A stretch of 64,000 nucleotides of DNA from Holophagae bacterium (GTDB lineage Bacteria > Acidobacteriota > Holophagae > Acanthopleuribacterales > Acanthopleuribacteraceae), in assembly GCA_029263455.1 (NCBI GenBank), contig JAJCXM010000034.1, positions 248,001-312,000 on the forward strand. The letters run 5' to 3'. Below the pieces are notes generated by a model. That model saw only the letters and a program-made list of their open reading frames with translations. It was not told the DNA's origin and did no database searches. Position numbers and translations under genes: made by a program. This document shows, one piece after another, positions 37,430 through 63,862 of this stretch (positions within the stretch are counted from its first letter, which is position 1; every line of letters begins with the position of its first letter).

Positions 37430-40333
37430 TTAAGGACTGGCCGATACCCTACACAGCCAATCAAGCGCTATTTCAGTAATGCTGTAACCCGATCCGCGAG
37501 ACATAAGTAGCGCTTGATGGTACGTACGTAGGCGTTCGATATAACTCCTGTCACCCAATTGCACCTTGGCGTAACTCAATGATGCTAGCGCACGCGCCAT
37601 TCGGAAGTCATCATCGGGCAATCCGTAGCGACGACTGATATCGACGGCCTCAGAAGCACAACTTACCGCCTTTTCGAATGCTTCGTTTTCGGCATGGACC
37701 TCAGCCAATCCTGAAAGCCATTTGGCCAATCTAAGTTCGTTCACATTCATGGCATCAGGTCCTGATGATTCAACCAATTTACGCGCCAGTTCTACCGCCA
37801 GCACCCTCGTTGAAACCGCCTCAGCAAATCTTTCCTGTAGCATCAAAGCGTTACCCAGAAGATGTAAGTCGCCAATGTAATTGGGGTGATTGCGACCAAG
37901 TGCTACTTCATCGATCTCGAGTGCTTCTCGAAGGCAGAGCTCGGTAGAACCGGTCTTTCCCTGGAATTCATGAGCCATTGACAAGTTACGTAAACTGCCT
38001 GCCACCGAACGATGGTTTGGCCCTAGTAGTTTTCGTTGTAGCTCGACAACTTCAGCCAAATGTATCTCTGCTTGGCCCGGTTCACCGGCAAAATTGAGGG
38101 TCGCGCCCAGATTGGCAAGGCTAGCGACGACCTCAGGATGAACCTCACCATAAATGGTCTTCTTGAGTTCAACGCAGCGTGCAAAAACTGCGGCAGCTTC
38201 ATGGAAGTGCCGCTGTTGAAACTGCACGCCTGCCAAATTTGAAAGCGATTTAAGCACACGCGGATGGCTCGCAGGAAATAGCCTTTCGTCGATCGCAACT
38301 GCCTCCTGTGCCAAGCTTTCGGCACGGTCGACTTGCTGCAGGTGCAATTTAACAATAACGAAATGCGAAATAATGGTACTGAGCTGCGAAGATGGTTGGC
38401 CAGAGGCCAATTTCTTTGACATTTCATAGGCCAGCTCTAAGGACTTATTGGCCTCATCATATTGAGCGGAATCATCTAAAATAGCGCCCAAATTAGACCA
38501 ACATTCCGCCACCAATTCGTGTTCGGGTCCAAACAAAGTTTGACGCGTTGATAGAGCGTCCCGTGCCCAAAGCTCCGCCTCTTCGCAGTCGCCCAGCGCC
38601 TTTAAGCACCACGCCATCATGACTTTAAATTCTGCAAGATCCCCTGATTCCAACTGACGGCTCTTGTCTTGGACAACGTCCTCAATGACTTCTATGGCTT
38701 CGGCGTATAGACCCAGTTCGTATTTGGATTTAGCCAGATATAGGTGTGCACGATCTCGCGCTTCAAACGTGAGCGGCAGCGACGGATCACTCACTACTGA
38801 ATGAAGCAAATTTGCCGAAGTATCATAATCACCCAGCGAGTGGTAAAGCCTACCAAGAGTTACAAGAATTCGACTGCGTAACACGTTCTGTTGCTTTAGG
38901 TCCGTTTCGACAGCAAGTCGCATGCGATCAATGTCTTCGCGACGCAGATCCTTATTGGTTTCGTTACTACCGATCTCTCGTTCGAACATAGAGCGCACCA
39001 GGAATTCGGTTGCCGCTTGTGTGGTCTTTCGTTCGTTCTCTGCCGCTACACTGCCTCGCCAAACTGAAAACCCACTCGCGCCCATTGCCATGGTTATTAC
39101 CAACCCGATGGCAAAAGCCTGCTTATGACGTCGTACAAATCGGCCCATGAGATAAGGAAATGTTGGCGCACGTGCTTTGACCGGCAACCCAAGTAGGAAT
39201 GATTCCAAGTCCATGCGAAATGCTTCCACCGACTGGTATCTGCGTTTTGCTGATACTTCCAGTGCCTTGGCCACGATCAAATCTAAATCACCACTTAAGC
39301 GTGTTCGCATTTGATTGGGAGACACGGCACGTGCCTTGGCTTGTTCCAACGCGTCGGTTGACGACCAATGTGCATGCTGTGCGCTTGCATTCAAATGATT
39401 GCTACGCTGAAGATCATCTATGATTTCTTTGCTTGAAAGCCCTTGCCAATCTCTTGGGCGAACGCCTGCTAATAACTCATAAAGGATGACGCCCAACGAA
39501 TAGACGTCTGACGAGGTTGTATTCTTTTGGCCTGCAATCAATTCAGGACTTGCATAATTTAGCGTCAACCGACGATCAGAAGGATGTGTCGTCGTATTCT
39601 GAGATTTAGTGGTGCTGACAGGTTTGGCTATTCCAAAATCGATGAGCTTGATGTCACCTTCGGCAGTCACCAGAATATTATCCGGCTTCAAATCACGATG
39701 GACAATTAGGTTTTGATGGGCATATTCAACGGCTTCACACACTTTGCTAAACAATTTCAAGCGATCATCGACGCGCATTGTCTTATCGTCGCAATACACC
39801 GTGATTGGCGATCCGATTACTTTCTCCATTAATATATAGGCATGTCCCGTTTTCGTTTGCCCAGCTTTGACAAAACCCGCTATAGCGGGATGGTCCAATT
39901 GCTGGAGCAGAGCCTGTTCTCGCTGCGCTACTTCTATTTGGTCTGACGGTGATTCATCACCCCATAACAGTTTCAATGCCATTTCTTGTTCAGGCTGGTC
40001 GTCGGACGTCACATCCAAAACGACACTTGTCCCACCAATCCCCAATACAGAGTGCACTTGAAATCCATCAAACGACCGGCCGACCCATTCCCGTCCCAAA
40101 CCATCGCCCGACAAACTCAATAGCGGTGATTCCAAAAAATCACCTTCAATCGCCGACTGATCGTGAAAAGCCAACATGCTTTCAACTTGCTCTTTTAACT
40201 CCTGTTTGCCAGCTAAGCGAGTTTCGATCAGTTGGTGACGCTTGTCTCCTGCGACACTCAAACAGTCATGGAAAAGGTCCCGAACAACACGTTGGTGGTC
40301 CTCAGGGTGATTGGGTTCATCTAGGCTATTCAC
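37430..40333 (-). CDS. Membrane Ser/Thr protein kinase with TPR sensor domain
   Basis: 967 residues starting at GTG 40333, which overlaps the sigma-factor stop (GTGA) and has GAGG 9 bases before. The kinase domain (about 85-370) is intact: LGIGGTSVV loop, MALKLL Lys, IVHRDLKPDNILV catalytic loop, LIDFGIAKP metal site and NYASPEL. One membrane span (FAIGLVITMAMGASGFSVW, about 405-425) is followed by some 530 residues of TPR repeats with a kinesin-light-chain pattern (HP-VLKSLSNLAGVQFQQRHF, HPEVVASLANLGATLNF), probably periplasmic. The kinase is cytoplasmic. It most likely acts on the co-encoded ECF sigma factor. Input signal unknown. Confidence 0.9.
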   Translation of the reverse strand: MNSLDEPNHPEDHQRVVRDLFHDCLSVAGDKRHQLIETRLAGKQELKEQVESMLAFHDQSAIEGDFLESPLLSLSGDGLGREWVGRSFDGFQVHSVLGIGGTSVVLDVTSDDQPEQEMALKLLWGDESPSDQIEVAQREQALLQQLDHPAIAGFVKAGQTKTGHAYILMEKVIGSPITVYCDDKTMRVDDRLKLFSKVCEAVEYAHQNLIVHRDLKPDNILVTAEGDIKLIDFGIAKPVSTTKSQNTTTHPSDRRLTLNYASPELIAGQKNTTSSDVYSLGVILYELLAGVRPRDWQGLSSKEIIDDLQRSNHLNASAQHAHWSSTDALEQAKARAVSPNQMRTRLSGDLDLIVAKALEVSAKRRYQSVEAFRMDLESFLLGLPVKARAPTFPYLMGRFVRRHKQAFAIGLVITMAMGASGFSVWRGSVAAENERKTTQAATEFLVRSMFEREIGSNETNKDLRREDIDRMRLAVETDLKQQNVLRSRILVTLGRLYHSLGDYDTSANLLHSVVSDPSLPLTFEARDRAHLYLAKSKYELGLYAEAIEVIEDVVQDKSRQLESGDLAEFKVMMAWCLKALGDCEEAELWARDALSTRQTLFGPEHELVAECWSNLGAILDDSAQYDEANKSLELAYEMSKKLASGQPSSQLSTIISHFVIVKLHLQQVDRAESLAQEAVAIDERLFPASHPRVLKSLSNLAGVQFQQRHFHEAAAVFARCVELKKTIYGEVHPEVVASLANLGATLNFAGEPGQAEIHLAEVVELQRKLLGPNHRSVAGSLRNLSMAHEFQGKTGSTELCLREALEIDEVALGRNHPNYIGDLHLLGNALMLQERFAEAVSTRVLAVELARKLVESSGPDAMNVNELRLAKWLSGLAEVHAENEAFEKAVSCASEAVDISRRYGLPDDDFRMARALASLSYAKVQLGDRSYIERLRTYHQALLMSRGSGYSITEIALDWLCRVSASP

Positions 40334-50586: not shown

Positions 50587-53176
50587 TGACCGTAAGCTTT
50601 TTCATCTATACGACCAGTTGATGGATGTTGACGAAGAAAAACGCGCTAAATGGTTGCAGGACCAGGGCATAGAGCCGTTGGTTTGCGAACAACTAATGAG
50701 CATGGTTCTTGCCGCTGAGTCCAGCATAGATAAACCATTTATGGCCGACGTGCCGACTGAGCCACTCAATTTCGAAAGTCCAGGCCAAGCCATCGACCTC
50801 AGCGCCGATCTTGGACCTTACCGTATCATCCGCCAGATCGGTGAAGGTGGGATGGGTAAAGTCTACCTGGCGGAACGACGCGAAGGCTTTCAAATGCAGG
50901 TCGCCATCAAGACCCTGCTGGGCGGGTTCCAAGAAGATCGGCGACGTCGTTTTCACCGTGAACGGCAGATTCTGGCGACCCTAAATCACGCCCATATTGC
51001 ACGGCTACTAGATGGAGGCGATAGCGCCGAAGGCCTTCCCTACTTAGTAATGGAATACGTCGACGGCGAATGCTTAACCGAATACTGTGACGATCAAGGG
51101 CTTTCAGTTGCAGAACGAATTCGTCTGTTCATTCAAATATGTGATGCGGTGCAATACGCTCACCAACAACTGATCCTGCACCGCGACTTAAAGCCGTCAA
51201 ACATCATGATTGACCAAATGGGTCATCCTAAACTCTTAGATTTTGGGGTCGCCAGTCTTCTGGAATCTGAAACGGGTCGCGAGCAAACGCAAACTTCGGC
51301 TGGATTATCACCTGCCTACGCCAGCCCAGAACAAATTCGTGCCCAGCGACTGACCGCTCAATCTGACGTTTATGCCCTTGGAGCCGTACTTTATGAGCTG
51401 CTAACTGGGGAACTGCCCTTTTCGGGCGATTCCTCATTGCAAGTTATGCAGCACATACTTGAGCAAGAACCTGAACTGCCAAGCAAAAGGATTATTACAA
51501 GCCAGTCTGTAACTCGCCCACAAGACCTTCAGCAGAGCCGCCTTCTCAAAGGCGACTTGGATCATATTATCCTTAAATGTTTAGAGAAAGCTGTGCCGCG
51601 ACGCTACGCCTCTGTTTTTGCGCTAATCCAAGATCTGGAGCGCTATTTGGCAGGCGAAACGGTGTCGGCTCAAAAGCCGTCCTTTTGGTATCGGTCCTCT
51701 AAGTGGGTCAATCGACACCGCTGGGTGTCGACACTGACCAGCTTGCTGTTGATCTCCACCTTTGCCTACCTATTTATGCTTCTACATAAGAATCGTGAAA
51801 TTGCTTGGCAACGCGATGAAGCACGTAAGGAACGAGATGCCGCTCAGGACATTGCCGATTTCTTAAGCGCATTGTTCGAGCAAGCCGATCCTTTGAAGCA
51901 ACAAAGTGAGATCAGCGCCGACCACATCCTCAAACAAGGGGTCGAACTCATTCAGTATGAGTTAATCGACCAACCAGCCATGAGAGGTCGTTTACTTTCC
52001 GTGATGGGTTCCGCCTATCGGAGTCTTGGGGAAACAGACGAGGCCTGGACCTTATTACAGGAGGCTGAAACGCTGCAAGCCGCCCATTTAGGTAAGGATC
52101 ACTGGGAATATGCGCGCACATTGGAAAGAATGTCCTTAACCTTAAAAGATCAGGGCCAATTAGAAAAAGCCAAGCAGTATTTGTCCCAGGCCCTTAGCAT
52201 TCATTCAGAGAGTGCTGAAAGCGCCAGTAACGACTACCCTTCCGCACTCAATCAAATGGGCGTATTACAACAGAAATCTGGTGAATATGAATCTGCAGAG
52301 TCCTATTTGCGGCAAGCGGAGACACTTTTCCGTCAAGGCCAAAATCATAAATCCTTAGCGGCAACACTGAACAATATCGGTCATCTACATCAAGAGACGG
52401 GTCATTTTGAAATCGCTTTAGAAGAACTAGAAGAAGCTCACATGCTTCACCGTGACCTATATGGTGCCCGTCATCCCACCACCGCGGTTTGTCTAAACAA
52501 TATTGGTCTTGTTTTACGCGAATTGGGTAGGTCACAAGAAGCCGCAACAACCTGGGCCGAATCCTACTCGATCCGTAAAGAAGTGCTCGGCGACAGTCAT
52601 CCTCACACATTAAGTAGTCTTAACAACCTGGCCAGCATCCAGTTCGAATTGAGGCAGTTGACTGAAGCACAAGCGTCCTTCCGAGAGGTAGTCCGAATAA
52701 AACGGCAGGTGTATGGAGCCGATCACCCCAGTTACGCCATTTCAATGAACAATCTCGCCCTTGTCTTGGCAAACAGCCAGGGTTTGCAAGAAGCCAAGCG
52801 GTTACTGGATGGAGCATGGACAATAACCGTCAACAAACTCGGCGAGAACCATTTATTACGCTTTTCAATCTTGCGGAACCAGGCATTAGTGGCCGTTTTG
52901 TCAGGAGAACCGAACAGCGGGCTTAAGCTCATTGACCAGTCGATTGATGGACTGAACCAACTCCACCAGAAAGGGAGCCTTTTACTGGCCCACGCTCAAG
53001 GAATTAAGGGCTTGTGTTTACATAGGTTAGGGCGTCACGACGATGCGAAACATTGGTTCGAATTGAGTTTAGCCTATTTGAATAAGCAGGCTGGGCCGTA
53101 CCAGTCTCAAATTCAATCCTGGTACGAAGCTTTTGTCAAAGAATCAAACGATGGGCAAAAGGGAGGCTATAACTAA
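50576..53176 (+). CDS. Membrane Ser/Thr protein kinase with TPR domain (second copy)
   Basis: 866 residues, GTG start inside the sigma-factor gene. Kinase domain about 80-360: QIGEGGMGKVYLAERR, QVAIKTLLGG, LILHRDLKPSNIMI, LLDFGVASLL and PAYASPEQI are intact, so it should be active. A span lies near 385-405 (VSTLTSLLLISTFAYLFML). The extracytoplasmic part has about eight TPRs of the 42-residue kinesin-light-chain type (SALNQMGVLQQKSGEYESAE, HPTTAVCLNNIGLVLRELGR, HPHTLSSLNNLASIQFELRQ). Probably phosphorylates the sigma factor. Separate from the downstream phosphofructokinase gene by 86 bases. Confidence 0.92.
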   Translation: MDADDRKLFHLYDQLMDVDEEKRAKWLQDQGIEPLVCEQLMSMVLAAESSIDKPFMADVPTEPLNFESPGQAIDLSADLGPYRIIRQIGEGGMGKVYLAERREGFQMQVAIKTLLGGFQEDRRRRFHRERQILATLNHAHIARLLDGGDSAEGLPYLVMEYVDGECLTEYCDDQGLSVAERIRLFIQICDAVQYAHQQLILHRDLKPSNIMIDQMGHPKLLDFGVASLLESETGREQTQTSAGLSPAYASPEQIRAQRLTAQSDVYALGAVLYELLTGELPFSGDSSLQVMQHILEQEPELPSKRIITSQSVTRPQDLQQSRLLKGDLDHIILKCLEKAVPRRYASVFALIQDLERYLAGETVSAQKPSFWYRSSKWVNRHRWVSTLTSLLLISTFAYLFMLLHKNREIAWQRDEARKERDAAQDIADFLSALFEQADPLKQQSEISADHILKQGVELIQYELIDQPAMRGRLLSVMGSAYRSLGETDEAWTLLQEAETLQAAHLGKDHWEYARTLERMSLTLKDQGQLEKAKQYLSQALSIHSESAESASNDYPSALNQMGVLQQKSGEYESAESYLRQAETLFRQGQNHKSLAATLNNIGHLHQETGHFEIALEELEEAHMLHRDLYGARHPTTAVCLNNIGLVLRELGRSQEAATTWAESYSIRKEVLGDSHPHTLSSLNNLASIQFELRQLTEAQASFREVVRIKRQVYGADHPSYAISMNNLALVLANSQGLQEAKRLLDGAWTITVNKLGENHLLRFSILRNQALVAVLSGEPNSGLKLIDQSIDGLNQLHQKGSLLLAHAQGIKGLCLHRLGRHDDAKHWFELSLAYLNKQAGPYQSQIQSWYEAFVKESNDGQKGGYN

Positions 53177-57476: not shown

Positions 57477-58661
57477 ATGTTGCGTGTGTGCCTATACTTC
57501 CAGGTACACCAGCCCTATAGGCTGAACAGAGACTATCGTTTTTTTGATATCGGCAGTAAAACGCCCTATTTTGACGAATCCTTAAACCGTCACCTCATGG
57601 AACGTGTGTCTGAACGCTGCTACATTCCCACCAACAAGCTACTCAAAGAATTGATTGAAAAAGCCTCTGGTCAATTCAAGGTGGCTTTTTCGATCACCGG
57701 TGTGTGCGTCGAACAGATGCGCGCATACGCGCCACAAGCATTGGACTCCTTTCACGAACTGCTGGCTACCGGTGAGGTGGAGCTGCTCAACGAAACCTAT
57801 TATCATTCGCTTGCCTCAGTGCTTTCATGGGATGAGTTTGATCGTCAGATCCTGCAGCACCGACAACTGATGCAACGTGAATTTGGCGTGACGCCAATCG
57901 TCTTTCGAAATACTGAGTTGATCGCAGACAATGAACTGGCCTTCCGCTTAGAGAGACAAGATTTCAAAGGCCTATTATGCGAAGGCGCCGAGCAAATCCT
58001 CGGTTGGCGTTCCCCCAATCACCTGTATTTGGCCGAGGGCTGCAACAAGTTGAAGCTATTACTCAAAAATTTCAGGTTGTCTGACGACATCGCGTTCCGC
58101 TTTTCGGACAGTCAGTGGCAAGAACACCCTCTTACCGCGAATAAATTCGCGGGCTGGATTTATCAACTTGTTGGGAATGCTGATACGGTTAATCTGTTCA
58201 TGGACTACGAAACATTTGGGGAACACCAATGGCGTGAATCGGGTATTTTTGAGTTTTTGCAGTCCCTTCCTGCTGCCCTCCTTTCCAATCCTGAAATTCG
58301 TTTTGCAACGCCAAGCGAGGTCATTGAAGCGGTGCAGCCTCTGGCAAAACTAGACATCCCCTTCCCGATTTCTTGGGCTGACGTCGAACGGGACCTGACC
58401 GCATGGATCGGCAACCCTCTTCAGAATTCGGCAATCGAGGAGCTCTACGCCTTAGAAGAGTTGATAGTCGCAAATGGAGACACAGAGCTGTTGGAACAAT
58501 GGCGCCGACTGCAGACTTCGGATCATTTCTACTACATGTGCACAAAATGGTTTTCCGATGGCGACGTGCATAAGTATTTTAATCCCTATGAAAGCCCGCA
58601 CCATGCTTGGCTCTCTTTCAGTCACATTCTGTCGGATTTGTGCAGGAAAGTTGGGCATTGA
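57477..58661 (+). CDS. GH57 family alpha-amylase/glucanotransferase
   Basis: 394 residues; ATG immediately follows the previous stop. CLYFQVHQPYRLNRDYRFFD is the GH57 N-terminal motif with the metal or substrate His in HQP. The nucleophile is Glu147 in FRNTELIADN and the acid is Asp243 in LFMDYETFGEHQW, both in the family's standard surroundings. FSITGVCVEQM and WFSDGDVHKYFNPYESPHHA support the rest of the barrel and the helical C domain. It cleaves or transfers alpha-1,4-glucan chains in the cytoplasm. Last gene of the polyglucan operon. Confidence 0.92.
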   Translation: MLRVCLYFQVHQPYRLNRDYRFFDIGSKTPYFDESLNRHLMERVSERCYIPTNKLLKELIEKASGQFKVAFSITGVCVEQMRAYAPQALDSFHELLATGEVELLNETYYHSLASVLSWDEFDRQILQHRQLMQREFGVTPIVFRNTELIADNELAFRLERQDFKGLLCEGAEQILGWRSPNHLYLAEGCNKLKLLLKNFRLSDDIAFRFSDSQWQEHPLTANKFAGWIYQLVGNADTVNLFMDYETFGEHQWRESGIFEFLQSLPAALLSNPEIRFATPSEVIEAVQPLAKLDIPFPISWADVERDLTAWIGNPLQNSAIEELYALEELIVANGDTELLEQWRRLQTSDHFYYMCTKWFSDGDVHKYFNPYESPHHAWLSFSHILSDLCRKVGH

Positions 58662-58747
58662 AGAGCCGGCACTTGTGCTGATTGAAGTGACAGAGTTCAT
58701 CGAAGTTAGTTAGAATGCCCCATCATATATATTTTAAGGAGACGCTG

Positions 58748-60133
58748 ATGCGTGTTCTCACTCTATTCATTGTTACTTTCTTGCCTTTTTCATTGGCCCA
58801 GGAACCAGTTGTTGATGGGCCACGCCTGCCCCGTCCACGTATTCAACAACAAGACATTGGCGCAGACCTCTTCACACTTGACGAACTGCGCAGTATTGGA
58901 CGCATCGTTTTCTCAACGCCATTCAACAAACACGACGGCTACGGCGACGGCCCCATGGACCATACAGATGCGATTTCTCCTGGTGGTCGCCCCACACTGC
59001 AAAATAACGGAACCTTTTTGAGAGTGAACGGCCTTGATGGGCAAACATGCTTTGAATGTCATTCCATTATCAGTAATGCCTCCGTCCCTGCCCGCTTGGG
59101 TATCGGCGGAGTGGGTGGATCAGTCACAAATGCGATGTTCATGCCCACTCATATCACTGTCACAGACGACGGTGCCAGCGGTTTCGCTAATTTCAACGGT
59201 CGTTTCATTAACCCACCCTTCTTGTTTGGATCAGGAGGCGTGGAGCTGCTAGGCAAAGAAATGACTGCCGACTTACAAACGCTTAAAGAGAAGGCGCGGC
59301 AGAATCCTTGGACATGGATTCCACTCACCAGTAAAGGCGTTAATTTTGGCGGCATCATGTATCGCAACGGTGTCTTTAACACCTCCCGCGTTCGAGGCGT
59401 CGACGAAGACCTTGTTGTTCGACCGTTTGGAAGAAAAGGCGAATTTCCAACCACAAGATCATTTGATGTTGGCGCCATGATGTTCCATTTCGGCATGCAG
59501 CCTACCGAAGAAGTTGGATTCAATAAGGATGCTGACGGAGACGGTGTTGTAAATGAAATTCTACCCGGTGAAATCTCGGCATTAGCTATCTTCAACACCA
59601 ATCTGGAGCGACCTTTCCAAGCCGAAAACCCCGACTACGCCAAACAGTTGGCTCTTTTCCGCGCCACCGGCTGTGCAGATTGCCATGTGAGCGAATTACG
59701 TACACAATCGCCCTACTTAACCTATAGTTTTCCCGAAGTCGAAAACGATCCTTCCGCTAACGTCTTTTTTGCGTCAGATCTTTCAACCTCGGCAGCCGGG
59801 TTTGAGACCCATGATCAAGGCGGAATCGTCGTGCGCCTGTTTTCCGACCTTAAGCGACACTCCATGGGCGAAGACTTGCGTGAATCGTTTGATCCTGCTG
59901 GAGACTTGCAATTCATCACTGCTCGGCTTTGGGGTGTAGCAGATACGGCGCCTTACATGCACGATGGACGCGCGCTGACCTTGCGTGAAGCGATCATGAT
60001 GCATGAAGGCGATGCCAGGCAGGTGCGTGACAATTTCGCCGCTTTATCGACTAAGGACCAGCAATCGATACTAGACTTCCTTGGCAGTCTAAGGACACCG
60101 CTGCATCCCGCCATTGACCTGGAGGACGAATAA
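58748..60133 (+). CDS. Exported di-haem c-type oxidoreductase (DUF1111)
   Basis: 461 residues from ATG 58748, chosen for AAGGAG 7 bases upstream. The signal peptide MRVLTLFIVTFLPFSLAQ is clear. Two CxxCH haem-attachment motifs are present: CFECH (101-105) and CADCH (309-313). GVNFGGIMYRNGVFN, SFDVGAMMFHFGMQ and TARLWGVADTAPYMHDGRAL are the blocks of the di-haem oxidoreductase (DHOR/DUF1111) family, related to MauG/peroxidases; YMHDGR.LTL.eAI is the usual end. It is probably periplasmic and transfers electrons or reduces peroxide. Partner unknown; transcribed alone. Confidence 0.88.
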   Translation: MRVLTLFIVTFLPFSLAQEPVVDGPRLPRPRIQQQDIGADLFTLDELRSIGRIVFSTPFNKHDGYGDGPMDHTDAISPGGRPTLQNNGTFLRVNGLDGQTCFECHSIISNASVPARLGIGGVGGSVTNAMFMPTHITVTDDGASGFANFNGRFINPPFLFGSGGVELLGKEMTADLQTLKEKARQNPWTWIPLTSKGVNFGGIMYRNGVFNTSRVRGVDEDLVVRPFGRKGEFPTTRSFDVGAMMFHFGMQPTEEVGFNKDADGDGVVNEILPGEISALAIFNTNLERPFQAENPDYAKQLALFRATGCADCHVSELRTQSPYLTYSFPEVENDPSANVFFASDLSTSAAGFETHDQGGIVVRLFSDLKRHSMGEDLRESFDPAGDLQFITARLWGVADTAPYMHDGRALTLREAIMMHEGDARQVRDNFAALSTKDQQSILDFLGSLRTPLHPAIDLEDE

Positions 60134-60307: not shown

Positions 60308-63300
60308 GTGGATTCATTCTTTATGGGTATTGACACCGGTAGTCACTCAGGCGCACAAGCTTTTCCCGATTTAGGGTTTGATAACACCCGCTACGACATC
60401 ATCGAAGCGGTTGGCCGTGGCGCGATGGGTCAAGTCTACAAAGCCTACGATCGCAATTTGAAGCGTCATGTCGCCCTTAAGTTCTTAACTGAAGATGATC
60501 CTAGCGAGGTATCCAGGGTTTTGAGGGAAGCCCAGGCCATGGCTCAGGTAGAGCACGAACATGTCTGTAAACTATACGAGGTCGGCGAATTCGCAGGTCG
60601 CCATTATCTTTCGATCCAATTCATCGAAGGTCTGACGTTAGATGAAGCTTCCGCAAGACTCACGCTAGAGCAGAAAGTCATGGTCATGCGCGATGTGGCC
60701 TTGGCCGCTCAAGAGGCACACAAGAACGGCATCATCCATCGCGATCTCAAGCCATCAAATGTGATGGTCGAATTCAAAGATGATGGCCTGATCAAAACAT
60801 GGGTGATGGATTTCGGCGTGGCTCGACACGTGTCAGCCGAAAAAACGTTAGACAGCAACGTTTTTTCCGGGACACCTCTTTACATGGCGCCCGAACAGCT
60901 CAGATCACACACACAGTTAGATCGACGTGCGGATATCTACAGCATGGGCGCAACTTTATATGAGTTGATCTGTGGACGTCCCCCCCTACTTGGTTCGTCG
61001 TCCGTTCAGGTCATTTTCAGAGTCATGCATGACGATCCTCTGCCGCTAAGAAAACGGGCACCCGATGTACCGCGTGACCTTGAAACCATAACCATGAAAT
61101 GTCTGTCCAAGGACATAGCACTTCGATACGATTCCGCTAAGGCTTTGGCCGAAGACTTACAGCACTTCCTTAACGGTGACCCAATTAAGGCTCATTCACC
61201 GAGCCTGTTTTACCGCGCAACCAAACTCGTATCAAAGAACAAGCTACTTAGCGCCGTGGTCAGTATTGCCTTGCTTGCCATAGTCATAACCGGTTTTTGG
61301 GCCATTCGCGAACGTACAAACGCGGCTTATCGCGTCTATCTGGCCCAAGAATTTAGTCGGCAAGCGCAAGACATTGAAAATAGAATGCATTTGATATTCA
61401 CCATGCCGCGCCATGATGTTTCTCAGGCGCTCAACGATGTACAGATCGGCATCCAAGAAATCGAACAGCAAATCGTTAAATTGGGACCTCAAGCAAAGGG
61501 TCCAGGACACTATGCCATCGGCAGAGCACTTTTAACCATCTCTGATTTTCACACGTCTTTAAAACATCTTCAAATGGCCGAAGCCGCTGGCTATGACAGC
61601 GCCGAATTTCACGCTGCCTTATGCCAGGCGCTTTCGGAAGTCTATCAACTGGAAGAGGACAAAGCTCAGCATCTGTCCTTGGGCCCCGATTTCCAAGCTC
61701 AACGAATTCAAGAACTTAAAGATATGTACTTAGAACCAGCGCAACACCACCTCGAACGCGCACGCGAAACGACAGAGAACCTGTATGTCAGCGCATTAAT
61801 CGCTCAACTGCAAGATCGCAACGAAGCCGCCAAAAAGCATGCACGCACATTCACCGAACTACACCCCTGGCGAGCTGAGGGCTACGTCATGGAGGCTCGC
61901 ATTTTAAGTGAAGAAGCGATCGACATTGAGGATGGTGGGGATTACGAACAAGCGCTAATCCGGCATAACGAAGCAATTGATCGCATCGAAGAGGCCCTGC
62001 CCTTCGTTGAAAGCCACCCACTGATTTACCAATGCCGTGACTCCGTTAAACAAAGACGTTTCGAAATGTTAGTTGAGCACGTATCCGGCAACGATGAAGA
62101 TGTTTTCAATGATCTGATGGATTCCATCAATACAACATTGACGGTCACTCCAAACGATTTTCGTACCTACATAATCATGGCTTGGTCATTACAAGAATGG
62201 GCTCATCATCAACGTGATCATGGCCAAGATGCGCTCGAACCAGCCAATCAATCCGTCGAAGCGGGGCGTCACGCACTTAGATTGGGCGTCAATAATCCCG
62301 ATGCCCTGAAAAGCTTGTCTTTGGCCCTTAAGTTTCGCGCCTACGTATTAGAACAAAATGGTCAAGATCCGATCCCCGATATCGAACAAGCCATCGCATA
62401 CATGGAGCAAGCATTAGAGTTAGCACCTAAGGATGTGAGTGGTCTGAATGCCATGGGCACGATTTTAGACACATACGGACTTTTCCTGACCAAGACCGGC
62501 CAGGCTCCCATGGATATCGTACGACGTTCCATTCACTTCTTTGAGCGTGCCATTGAAATCAATCCTGATTTCGCCTTTGCTCACAACAATATTTCGATGC
62601 CCTACGTGGATCTTTCTTACTTATTGATGAACCAAGGATTAGATCCATTGGAGAGCTTACACAAGGCACGTGAGCATCTGAAAATTGCGGTCGGATTGAA
62701 TCCAAACTACTACAATGCTTATTACAATCTCAGTTGGTCCTATTTCATCGAGGGCTATTACTTAACAACTGTCGGGCAAAACCCCATTCCACGATTGGAA
62801 CAGGCTGTAGACGCGGCTAAAAAGAGCCAGACCATCAACCCAGAAAACGTGCGAGCGTACAACGTTCTAGCATCAACCAATGCTTTGATAGCTGAACATA
62901 TTGTAAATGTGGGCAAAGACCCATCTCCGTATCTTGACGAGGCGCGCGCCTCCTACTTTGTTGTCTTGGACTTAATGCCCTCGTCTCATGGTGCCTACAA
63001 TGACTTAGCAAACACGTATCTGATCCAAGGCCGATATTTATTGGAACGCGGCCTCGACCCTTCGGTCTCCCTAGAAAAAGCACTGGGTTTCTTAGACAAG
63101 TCGTCAGCGCTTAATGCACCGTCTTTCTTATCTCATGTCAACCGTGGTTATGCCTACCGTGATCTGGCGATCTATCAGTATTGGACGGGCAATGACGCGG
63201 TCGATCTTGTTCGCAAATCAAGCGAAGCTTTCAAAACAGGCCTCGACGCCAATACTAGTTACAATAATGCGTTTGTAGGGCGGGCCTGGCTATTCAATAC

Positions 63301-63862
63301 CATCCTAGACATGCAACTGAACACTTGTGCCATAGATAAACATGCCCTTGGGGCCGCTCAGTCTGATGTGGATCAAGCCATTAACCTCAATCCAAAAGAC
63401 GCAAACGCGCATCGCCAAGCATCCGTCTTGGCTATTCTCAAGGCTCGTGCTCAACTATGTGTTCAGTCAACCGTGGATGGATTCCTATTTGAGGACGCTT
63501 TGAAACACGCACAGTTGGCGGTAGAACACCGTCCCAACTACGCAGAACATTTACGCGGCCAGGCCGAAATAACCCGTTGGGTCTTGGAGCTAAAGCCACT
63601 TACGAAAGATGAACGTGATGTTTTATGGCAAGCCGCCATGAATTCGCTGAACCAAGCCAGAAACGCCACGGAATATGAAACCAGATGCGATCTTGAGGAA
63701 GCTAGACTGCTGGCCCTTATGCCGATTGACGAGACCAACCGCTCACGTCTAAACAAGCTCATCGAATCTGTCATCGACGATGGCGGTGTTTTTGCCTTGC
63801 AAGCTAAGGCGCTACGCAACAAGTTAACCGACTCGCAAGCTACAAAACCAGGCGGATCATAA
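60308..63862 (+). CDS. Membrane Ser/Thr protein kinase with 46-residue TPR array
   Basis: 1184 residues (GTG start; ATG 60323 is possible, no clear ribosome site for either). Kinase about 30-300: AVGRGAMGQVYKAYDR, HVALKFL, IIHRDLKPSNVMVE, VMDFGVARH and TPLYMAPEQL are intact. A span lies at about 313-332 (LSAVVSIALLAIVITGFWAI). The following 850 residues are helical repeats, including at least eight extended TPRs with exact 46-residue spacing, each with a G-x-[DNA]-[PA] turn between helices. No ECF gene is adjacent, unlike the other two kinases. The repeat domain is expected outside the inner membrane. Substrate and signal unknown. Confidence 0.9.
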   Translation: MDSFFMGIDTGSHSGAQAFPDLGFDNTRYDIIEAVGRGAMGQVYKAYDRNLKRHVALKFLTEDDPSEVSRVLREAQAMAQVEHEHVCKLYEVGEFAGRHYLSIQFIEGLTLDEASARLTLEQKVMVMRDVALAAQEAHKNGIIHRDLKPSNVMVEFKDDGLIKTWVMDFGVARHVSAEKTLDSNVFSGTPLYMAPEQLRSHTQLDRRADIYSMGATLYELICGRPPLLGSSSVQVIFRVMHDDPLPLRKRAPDVPRDLETITMKCLSKDIALRYDSAKALAEDLQHFLNGDPIKAHSPSLFYRATKLVSKNKLLSAVVSIALLAIVITGFWAIRERTNAAYRVYLAQEFSRQAQDIENRMHLIFTMPRHDVSQALNDVQIGIQEIEQQIVKLGPQAKGPGHYAIGRALLTISDFHTSLKHLQMAEAAGYDSAEFHAALCQALSEVYQLEEDKAQHLSLGPDFQAQRIQELKDMYLEPAQHHLERARETTENLYVSALIAQLQDRNEAAKKHARTFTELHPWRAEGYVMEARILSEEAIDIEDGGDYEQALIRHNEAIDRIEEALPFVESHPLIYQCRDSVKQRRFEMLVEHVSGNDEDVFNDLMDSINTTLTVTPNDFRTYIIMAWSLQEWAHHQRDHGQDALEPANQSVEAGRHALRLGVNNPDALKSLSLALKFRAYVLEQNGQDPIPDIEQAIAYMEQALELAPKDVSGLNAMGTILDTYGLFLTKTGQAPMDIVRRSIHFFERAIEINPDFAFAHNNISMPYVDLSYLLMNQGLDPLESLHKAREHLKIAVGLNPNYYNAYYNLSWSYFIEGYYLTTVGQNPIPRLEQAVDAAKKSQTINPENVRAYNVLASTNALIAEHIVNVGKDPSPYLDEARASYFVVLDLMPSSHGAYNDLANTYLIQGRYLLERGLDPSVSLEKALGFLDKSSALNAPSFLSHVNRGYAYRDLAIYQYWTGNDAVDLVRKSSEAFKTGLDANTSYNNAFVGRAWLFNTILDMQLNTCAIDKHALGAAQSDVDQAINLNPKDANAHRQASVLAILKARAQLCVQSTVDGFLFEDALKHAQLAVEHRPNYAEHLRGQAEITRWVLELKPLTKDERDVLWQAAMNSLNQARNATEYETRCDLEEARLLALMPIDETNRSRLNKLIESVIDDGGVFALQAKALRNKLTDSQATKPGGS
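62222..63325 (+). repeat. Eight tandem 138-base (46-residue) extended TPR units
   Basis: The Gly codon of the G-x-D/N-P turn falls at 62222, 62360, 62498, 62636, 62774, 62912, 63050 and 63188: every interval is exactly 138 bases. Turns read GQDA, GQDP, GQAP, GLDP, GQNP, GKDP, GLDP and GNDA, followed by a helix beginning about four residues later and by N-P before the second helix pair. A ninth, degenerate unit starts at 62087 (GNDE), 135 bases earlier. An ordinary TPR is 34 residues, so each unit carries about 12 extra. Confidence 0.9.

Follow-up and report, generated by a model that had tools for sequence, protein, structure and literature searches.

TPR solenoids fall into length classes, two of which are named in the nPR scheme, 34PR and 42PR, the latter known from kinesin light chain, in which helices A and B are longer by 3 and 4 residues (PMC5642895). 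Bacterial Ser/Thr kinases with C-terminal TPRs are represented by the PknG type, where the TPR works through a separate transmembrane partner, GlnX (PMC8546545). In PknB-type PASTA receptor kinases (NF033483), an N-terminal kinase domain is followed by one transmembrane helix (TM) and C-terminal extracytoplasmic repeats. The gene that we describe here lies in the window, the whole 64,000-nucleotide stretch of Holophagae bacterium DNA that was analysed, and its product resembles the PASTA kinases in the type of its N-terminal kinase domain, in its one TM and in its C-terminal repeats, which would be extracytoplasmic, but it contains no PASTA domain, its putative sensor being a TPR solenoid. The NF033483 model rejects it (259.6 bits against a cut-off of 450, with the match confined to the kinase). 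Like PknG it is a bacterial Ser/Thr kinase with C-terminal TPRs, and by its description it is set apart from PknG by its 46-residue units and by an array that lies beyond the kinase’s own TM. Its features are listed below by window position.

60308..63862, plus strand: whole gene with GTG start, encoding a receptor-type Ser/Thr kinase of 1184 aa that carries the 46-residue TPR array
60392..61150, plus strand: protein kinase domain, aa 29-281 (Pfam PF00069, E 1.8e-45, 155.8 bits against a cut-off of 31.7)
61244..61306, plus strand: single transmembrane helix, ~aa 313-333 (Kyte-Doolittle 19-mer maximum 2.42 at aa 313)
61307..62143, plus strand: juxtamembrane region and linker, aa 334-612, all-helical in prediction
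62144..62281, plus strand: TPR unit 1, aa 613-658, turn GQDA at aa 639
62282..62419, plus strand: TPR unit 2, aa 659-704, turn GQDP at aa 685
62420..62557, plus strand: TPR unit 3, aa 705-750, turn GQAP at aa 731
62558..62695, plus strand: TPR unit 4, aa 751-796, turn GLDP at aa 777
62696..62833, plus strand: TPR unit 5, aa 797-842, turn GQNP at aa 823
62834..62971, plus strand: TPR unit 6, aa 843-888, turn GKDP at aa 869
62972..63109, plus strand: TPR unit 7, aa 889-934, turn GLDP at aa 915
63110..63247, plus strand: TPR unit 8, aa 935-980, turn GNDA at aa 961
63248..63859, plus strand: C-terminal region, aa 981-1184, TPR-like helices in degenerate form, G-x-D-P turn absent

The N-terminal part of the protein is a Hanks-type (PknB-like) Ser/Thr kinase with all catalytic motifs present, namely the glycine loop GRGAMGQV at aa 36, the ALKFL lysine at aa 56, HRDLKPSN at aa 144, DFG at aa 168 and APE at aa 194; an in-frame ATG at 60323 provides an alternative start for the gene. 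The hydrophobic maximum assigned to the TM stands alone, as the highest Kyte-Doolittle 19-mer outside aa 280-345 reaches 1.08, and its position relative to the HRD motif is unchanged in 19/19 other full-length relatives of the window’s class. Because a kinase needs cytoplasmic ATP, this single TM would place the kinase in the cytoplasm and the array outside. The linker is modelled at low confidence by AF2 from the single sequence (pLDDT 56) and contains two conserved blocks, MPRHD at aa 366 and GPGHYAIGR at aa 398. We observed that the juxtamembrane stretch spanned by these blocks (aa 366-406, 61403-61525) recurs in many relatives as GPGHYALGRGYLTL, ~83-85 residues past the TM; it is possibly a conserved coupling element. 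The part of the protein conserved least is aa 981-1184, downstream of the array.

The array occupies aa 613-980 (62144-63247) and is defined by a G-x-[DNA]-[PA] turn that recurs at aa 639, 685, 731, 777, 823, 869, 915 and 961, that is, at aa 639+46k. In nucleotides, the turns start at 62222, 62360 and so on to 63188 with exactly 138 nt between each, as the original prediction had claimed for eight such turns; the chain of eight at spacing 46 compares with a longest chain of 2 in 20,000 shuffles of aa 580-1079. Residue-similarity autocorrelation over aa 620-1020 gives lag 46 as the sole sharp peak (+0.53), with the next best lag at -0.51 and the best of 200 shuffles at -0.52. All eight units align without gaps in 46 columns, and the 46 residues directly after the array have weak TPR character and lack the turn. 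Neighbouring units are only ~21% identical at the amino-acid level and 32-43% at the nucleotide level, and this low unit-to-unit identity indicates that the exact spacing is an old conserved feature rather than the product of recent duplication.

Each unit is a 34-residue TPR plus 12 residues, in which the canonical core is kept and the tip of the hairpin is lengthened. Two Pfam TPR models pass their gathering scores on the protein, TPR_17 with 48.3 bits against 24.4 and TPR_11 with 35.6 bits against 26.8, and alignment of each unit to the designed consensus TPR requires insertions of 7 and 5 residues, the first falling at the end of helix A and the second at the start of helix B, so that the predicted constant excess of 12 residues per TPR is borne out. 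The TPR signature is retained across 163 units from 20 relatives: the equivalent of position 7 is L in 86 units, position 8 is G/A/S in 151, position 11 is Y in 48, position 20 is A/G/S in 149, position 24 is aromatic or aliphatic, position 27 is A/S/G in 134 and position 32 is P in 124. In the lengthened part of helix A, unit position 20 is Ala/Gly/Ser in 154/163 units, a small residue that close helix packing would require.

Structure prediction, which had been proposed along with the original prediction, was carried out with AF2 on the window sequence alone (a single sequence, aa 590-1030) and gave regular A and B helices of 20 and 17 residues, with a mean pLDDT of 80.7 and a pTM of 0.69 for the array, one of the five models scoring only 31. 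In this model the same five-residue turn separates the helices in 8/8 units (HHHHH-----HHHHH on x-G-x-[DNA]-[PA]), and AF2 together with Foldseek predicts a solenoid to which every unit contributes an antiparallel pair of helices. The top-ranking folds belong to TPR solenoids (OGT, CTPR, Ski3 and TTC7B), with a Foldseek probability of 1.00 to the OGT and CTPR solenoids and a top TM-score, among the 50 matches listed, of 0.57 on query length. These modelled matches fit a TPR solenoid of unusual geometry, the pitch of which lies beyond a single-sequence model; a distinct superhelix is plausible. Unit 4 (62558-62695, aa 751-796) has a proline in helix A (NNISMPY) that is kept in the congener; at this proline AF2 breaks the helix and loses confidence.

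Compared with named repeats, the array shares with 34PR (TPR_1/2/8/11/17, OGT, CTPR) its helix-turn-helix units and the equivalents of L7, G/A/S8, Y11, A20, A27 and P32, but differs in its period of exactly 46, in the 7 residues added to helix A and the 5 added to helix B, and in the fixed G-x-D-P cap at the hairpin tip. CTPR and OGT are the best PDB sequence matches of the array profiles; these matches cover only the core from helix B to the next helix A and end at the G-x-D-P tips. With the 42PR of kinesin light chain, the array has in common that it is a TPR length class with both helices lengthened, but the period is 46 rather than 42 and the helices gain 7 and 5 rather than 3 and 4 residues, so that filing under 42PR is ruled out by the period; TPR_12, which we take to be the model of the 42-residue type, is far under its cut-off here (8.5 against 30.1). 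Sel1 (PF08238), the other comparison suggested at the outset, is likewise a TPR-like alpha-solenoid and has one weak match in the protein, but the whole protein scores 18.9 bits against a cut-off of 30.7, and a Sel1 assignment was rejected. We found no named 46-residue repeat in Pfam, NCBIfam or PDB sequences, no solved structure of a 46-residue TPR class, and no description of such a class or of this kinase family in the open-licence papers searched, where 34PR and 42PR alone are named. The original prediction of a TPR-derived array of no named form on a membrane kinase therefore stands, and the possibility that its unit would match an already named family is true in part: the unit passes Pfam TPR cut-offs and is thus a TPR length variant, but one belonging to no named 46-residue class.

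We used two profiles, one of a strict single unit (46 columns) and one of a unit pair (92 columns), for the search of other proteins that had been proposed with the original prediction, and the array proved to be shared by many kinases across the phylum rather than being a peculiarity of the one protein. Within its own genome (6.2 Mb), which contains 86 matches to the Pkinase family, this gene alone matched the array profiles above noise. Three of the Pkinase matches fall in the window, at ~39218-40063 on the minus strand and at 50819-51610 and 60392-61150 on the plus strand. The only matches in a contig scan (L001-L003) were plain 34-residue-period or irregular TPR proteins that are unrelated to the array, and the plasmid records that we searched for the array gave no match. 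Among 93 genomes of the window’s class, 14 match the strict single-unit profile, and in a sample of 396 genomes of the phylum at least 77 match the unit-pair profile at E <= 1e-8, with unit-pair matches in at least 43/209 genera; both figures are lower bounds, as no more than 13 candidates were scored in any one genome. The unit-pair profile had no match in 299, 145 and 121 genomes (0/565) of three other phyla, reached through MAGs of Gammaproteobacteria, Verrucomicrobia and Anaerolineae, in a search with no positive control inside it. All 20 genes that we read from outside the window’s class encode kinases, with 6 to 11 units each, a TM ~165-200 residues past HRD in 19/20, and a spacing between successive units of exactly 46 in 128/143 cases; in relatives within the class, spacings of 46, 45 and 44 occur 161, 27 and 12 times. 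A one-off, an unrelated repeat or a new fold can be set aside, as the same 46-residue design is present on many kinases and the Pfam TPR cut-offs are passed. The 46-residue array is thus a real, unnamed TPR sub-type, a length variant, in a phylum-wide kinase family.

The orthologue in a congener (L081 464-4632) is 51% identical and has the same eight units in colinear order, with unit k 49% identical to unit k and other pairings 21% identical, indicating that the number of eight units was already settled when the two species diverged. Upstream of the kinase gene, the window encodes a GH57 glycosidase and a di-haem peroxidase (57477-60133), and just beyond the window, on the other side of the kinase gene, lie an alpha-glucan phosphorylase (DUF3417) and a debranching enzyme. 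The neighbours of the congener’s orthologue are genes for a SpoIIE-type phosphatase, MerR-B12 and fasciclin proteins, and because they differ we gave the glycogen-metabolism neighbours no weight as a clue to function.

From the anatomy, periodicity, TPR identity and conservation across the phylum, all computed here, we infer a topology, ligand binding, signalling and the kind of ligand. We propose, with a probability of about 0.62, that the protein is a single-pass receptor Ser/Thr kinase in which a periplasmic TPR solenoid of the 46-residue class (‘46PR’) binds a ligand and switches the kinase. Each unit would be an ordinary TPR hairpin with a lengthened tip, with helix A extended by two turns (+7) and helix B by roughly one and a half (+5), and the constant spacing of 46 would be kept because the hairpins must share one height to stack. 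With the kinase inside and one TM, this solenoid would stand outside in place of the PASTA repeats of PknB-type kinases, where it may bind a peptide, a protein partner or a cell-envelope polymer in a concave groove lined by helices A; binding would alter the spacing or dimer state of the TM helices and so switch the cytoplasmic kinase. There is precedent for a periplasmic TPR domain that binds a polysaccharide in PgaA (PMC9384988). Between the two congeneric orthologues, the concave positions (TPR 2, 5, 9, 12 and 13) are 80% identical compared with 36% for other non-signature positions (Fisher p 2e-7, tested after the per-position counts had been looked at), but the difference does not recur in a second orthologue group of 11 kinases (0.54 against 0.52, p 0.30); the conservation of the groove is a hint only of what a conserved ligand site would give.

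The main rival to this receptor model, which we consider unlikely, is that the array is an adaptor or substrate scaffold that recruits partners constitutively, with no ligand sensing and no switching of the kinase. TPR domains are chiefly protein-interaction modules, as a scaffold would be, and for the TPR of PknG a scaffolding role in localisation, with a transmembrane partner, has been proposed (PMC8546545). A relative that would suit such a role exists in L095 (G097:C121:45500-51500), a 757-aa ORF on the minus strand in which the kinase domain runs straight into a ten-unit 46-residue array; the TM and the linker (~325 aa) are missing, so the ORF is a soluble variant that exists in nature or else a chimera created by the assembly. 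This TM-less protein joins the array to a kinase, and the array may therefore not always be periplasmic. Against a constitutive scaffold, the array lies beyond the TM in 19/20 relatives, where substrates in the cytoplasm would be out of its reach if the kinase is cytoplasmic, although an array in that position could still scaffold envelope proteins.

For the receptor model, a further matter is where on the solenoid a ligand would bind. The original prediction had the GxDP turns lining a ligand groove and making the contacts, which would agree with the turn positions being the most invariant of the unit (Gly in 8/8 units of the window protein), but we regard it as very improbable. Invariance in every unit of every paralogue suits a structural role better than ligand specificity, and in solenoids of the TPR type it is helices A that line the groove (PMC5642895), with the ligand-binding positions, 2, 5, 9, 12 and 13, being the most variable ones (PMC1261162). 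Among 163 units of 20 kinases of other families, unit position 27 is Gly in 137, and where this Gly is present the third position of the turn is D/N/S/T in 122/137 and the fourth is Pro in 109/137. These are established helix-capping preferences, with Gly at the C-cap, an N-cap side chain after it and Pro at N1, and the turn reads as such a capping motif (Gly C-cap, Asp/Asn N-cap, Pro N1) and not as a ligand site: Gly would end helix A, x would be the linker, Asp/Asn would cap helix B and Pro would take N1, closing the hairpin. As turns with this pattern join the tips of helices A and B, and the groove lining consists of helices A, we rejected a groove lined by the turns. Ordinary 34-residue TPRs that each carry an inserted 12-residue loop of incidentally constant length would account for the matches of Pfam 34-residue models to parts of the units, but this is barely credible given that the inserted residues are predicted to extend both helices without a break, include a conserved small residue of their own (unit position 20, 154/163) and leave the length at 46 in 128/143 spacings of other families.

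Beyond the receptor model itself, we would only tentatively suggest that 46PR is a distinct structural class of TPR solenoid with a deeper groove and a superhelical pitch of its own. In this reading it would have evolved largely within one phylum, where the members of a kinase family would use it as their common sensor for envelope or environmental ligands, with lineage-specific groove residues. The 46-residue class refines known kinds and introduces no new principle. It defines a sensor module for kinases that are now annotated only as ‘kinase, TPR repeat’, together with a ready annotation profile, and it offers protein design a natural lengthened solenoid scaffold. For the kinase family, it provides a testable case of how a kinase that spans the membrane could be switched by a ligand bound to its TPR solenoid.
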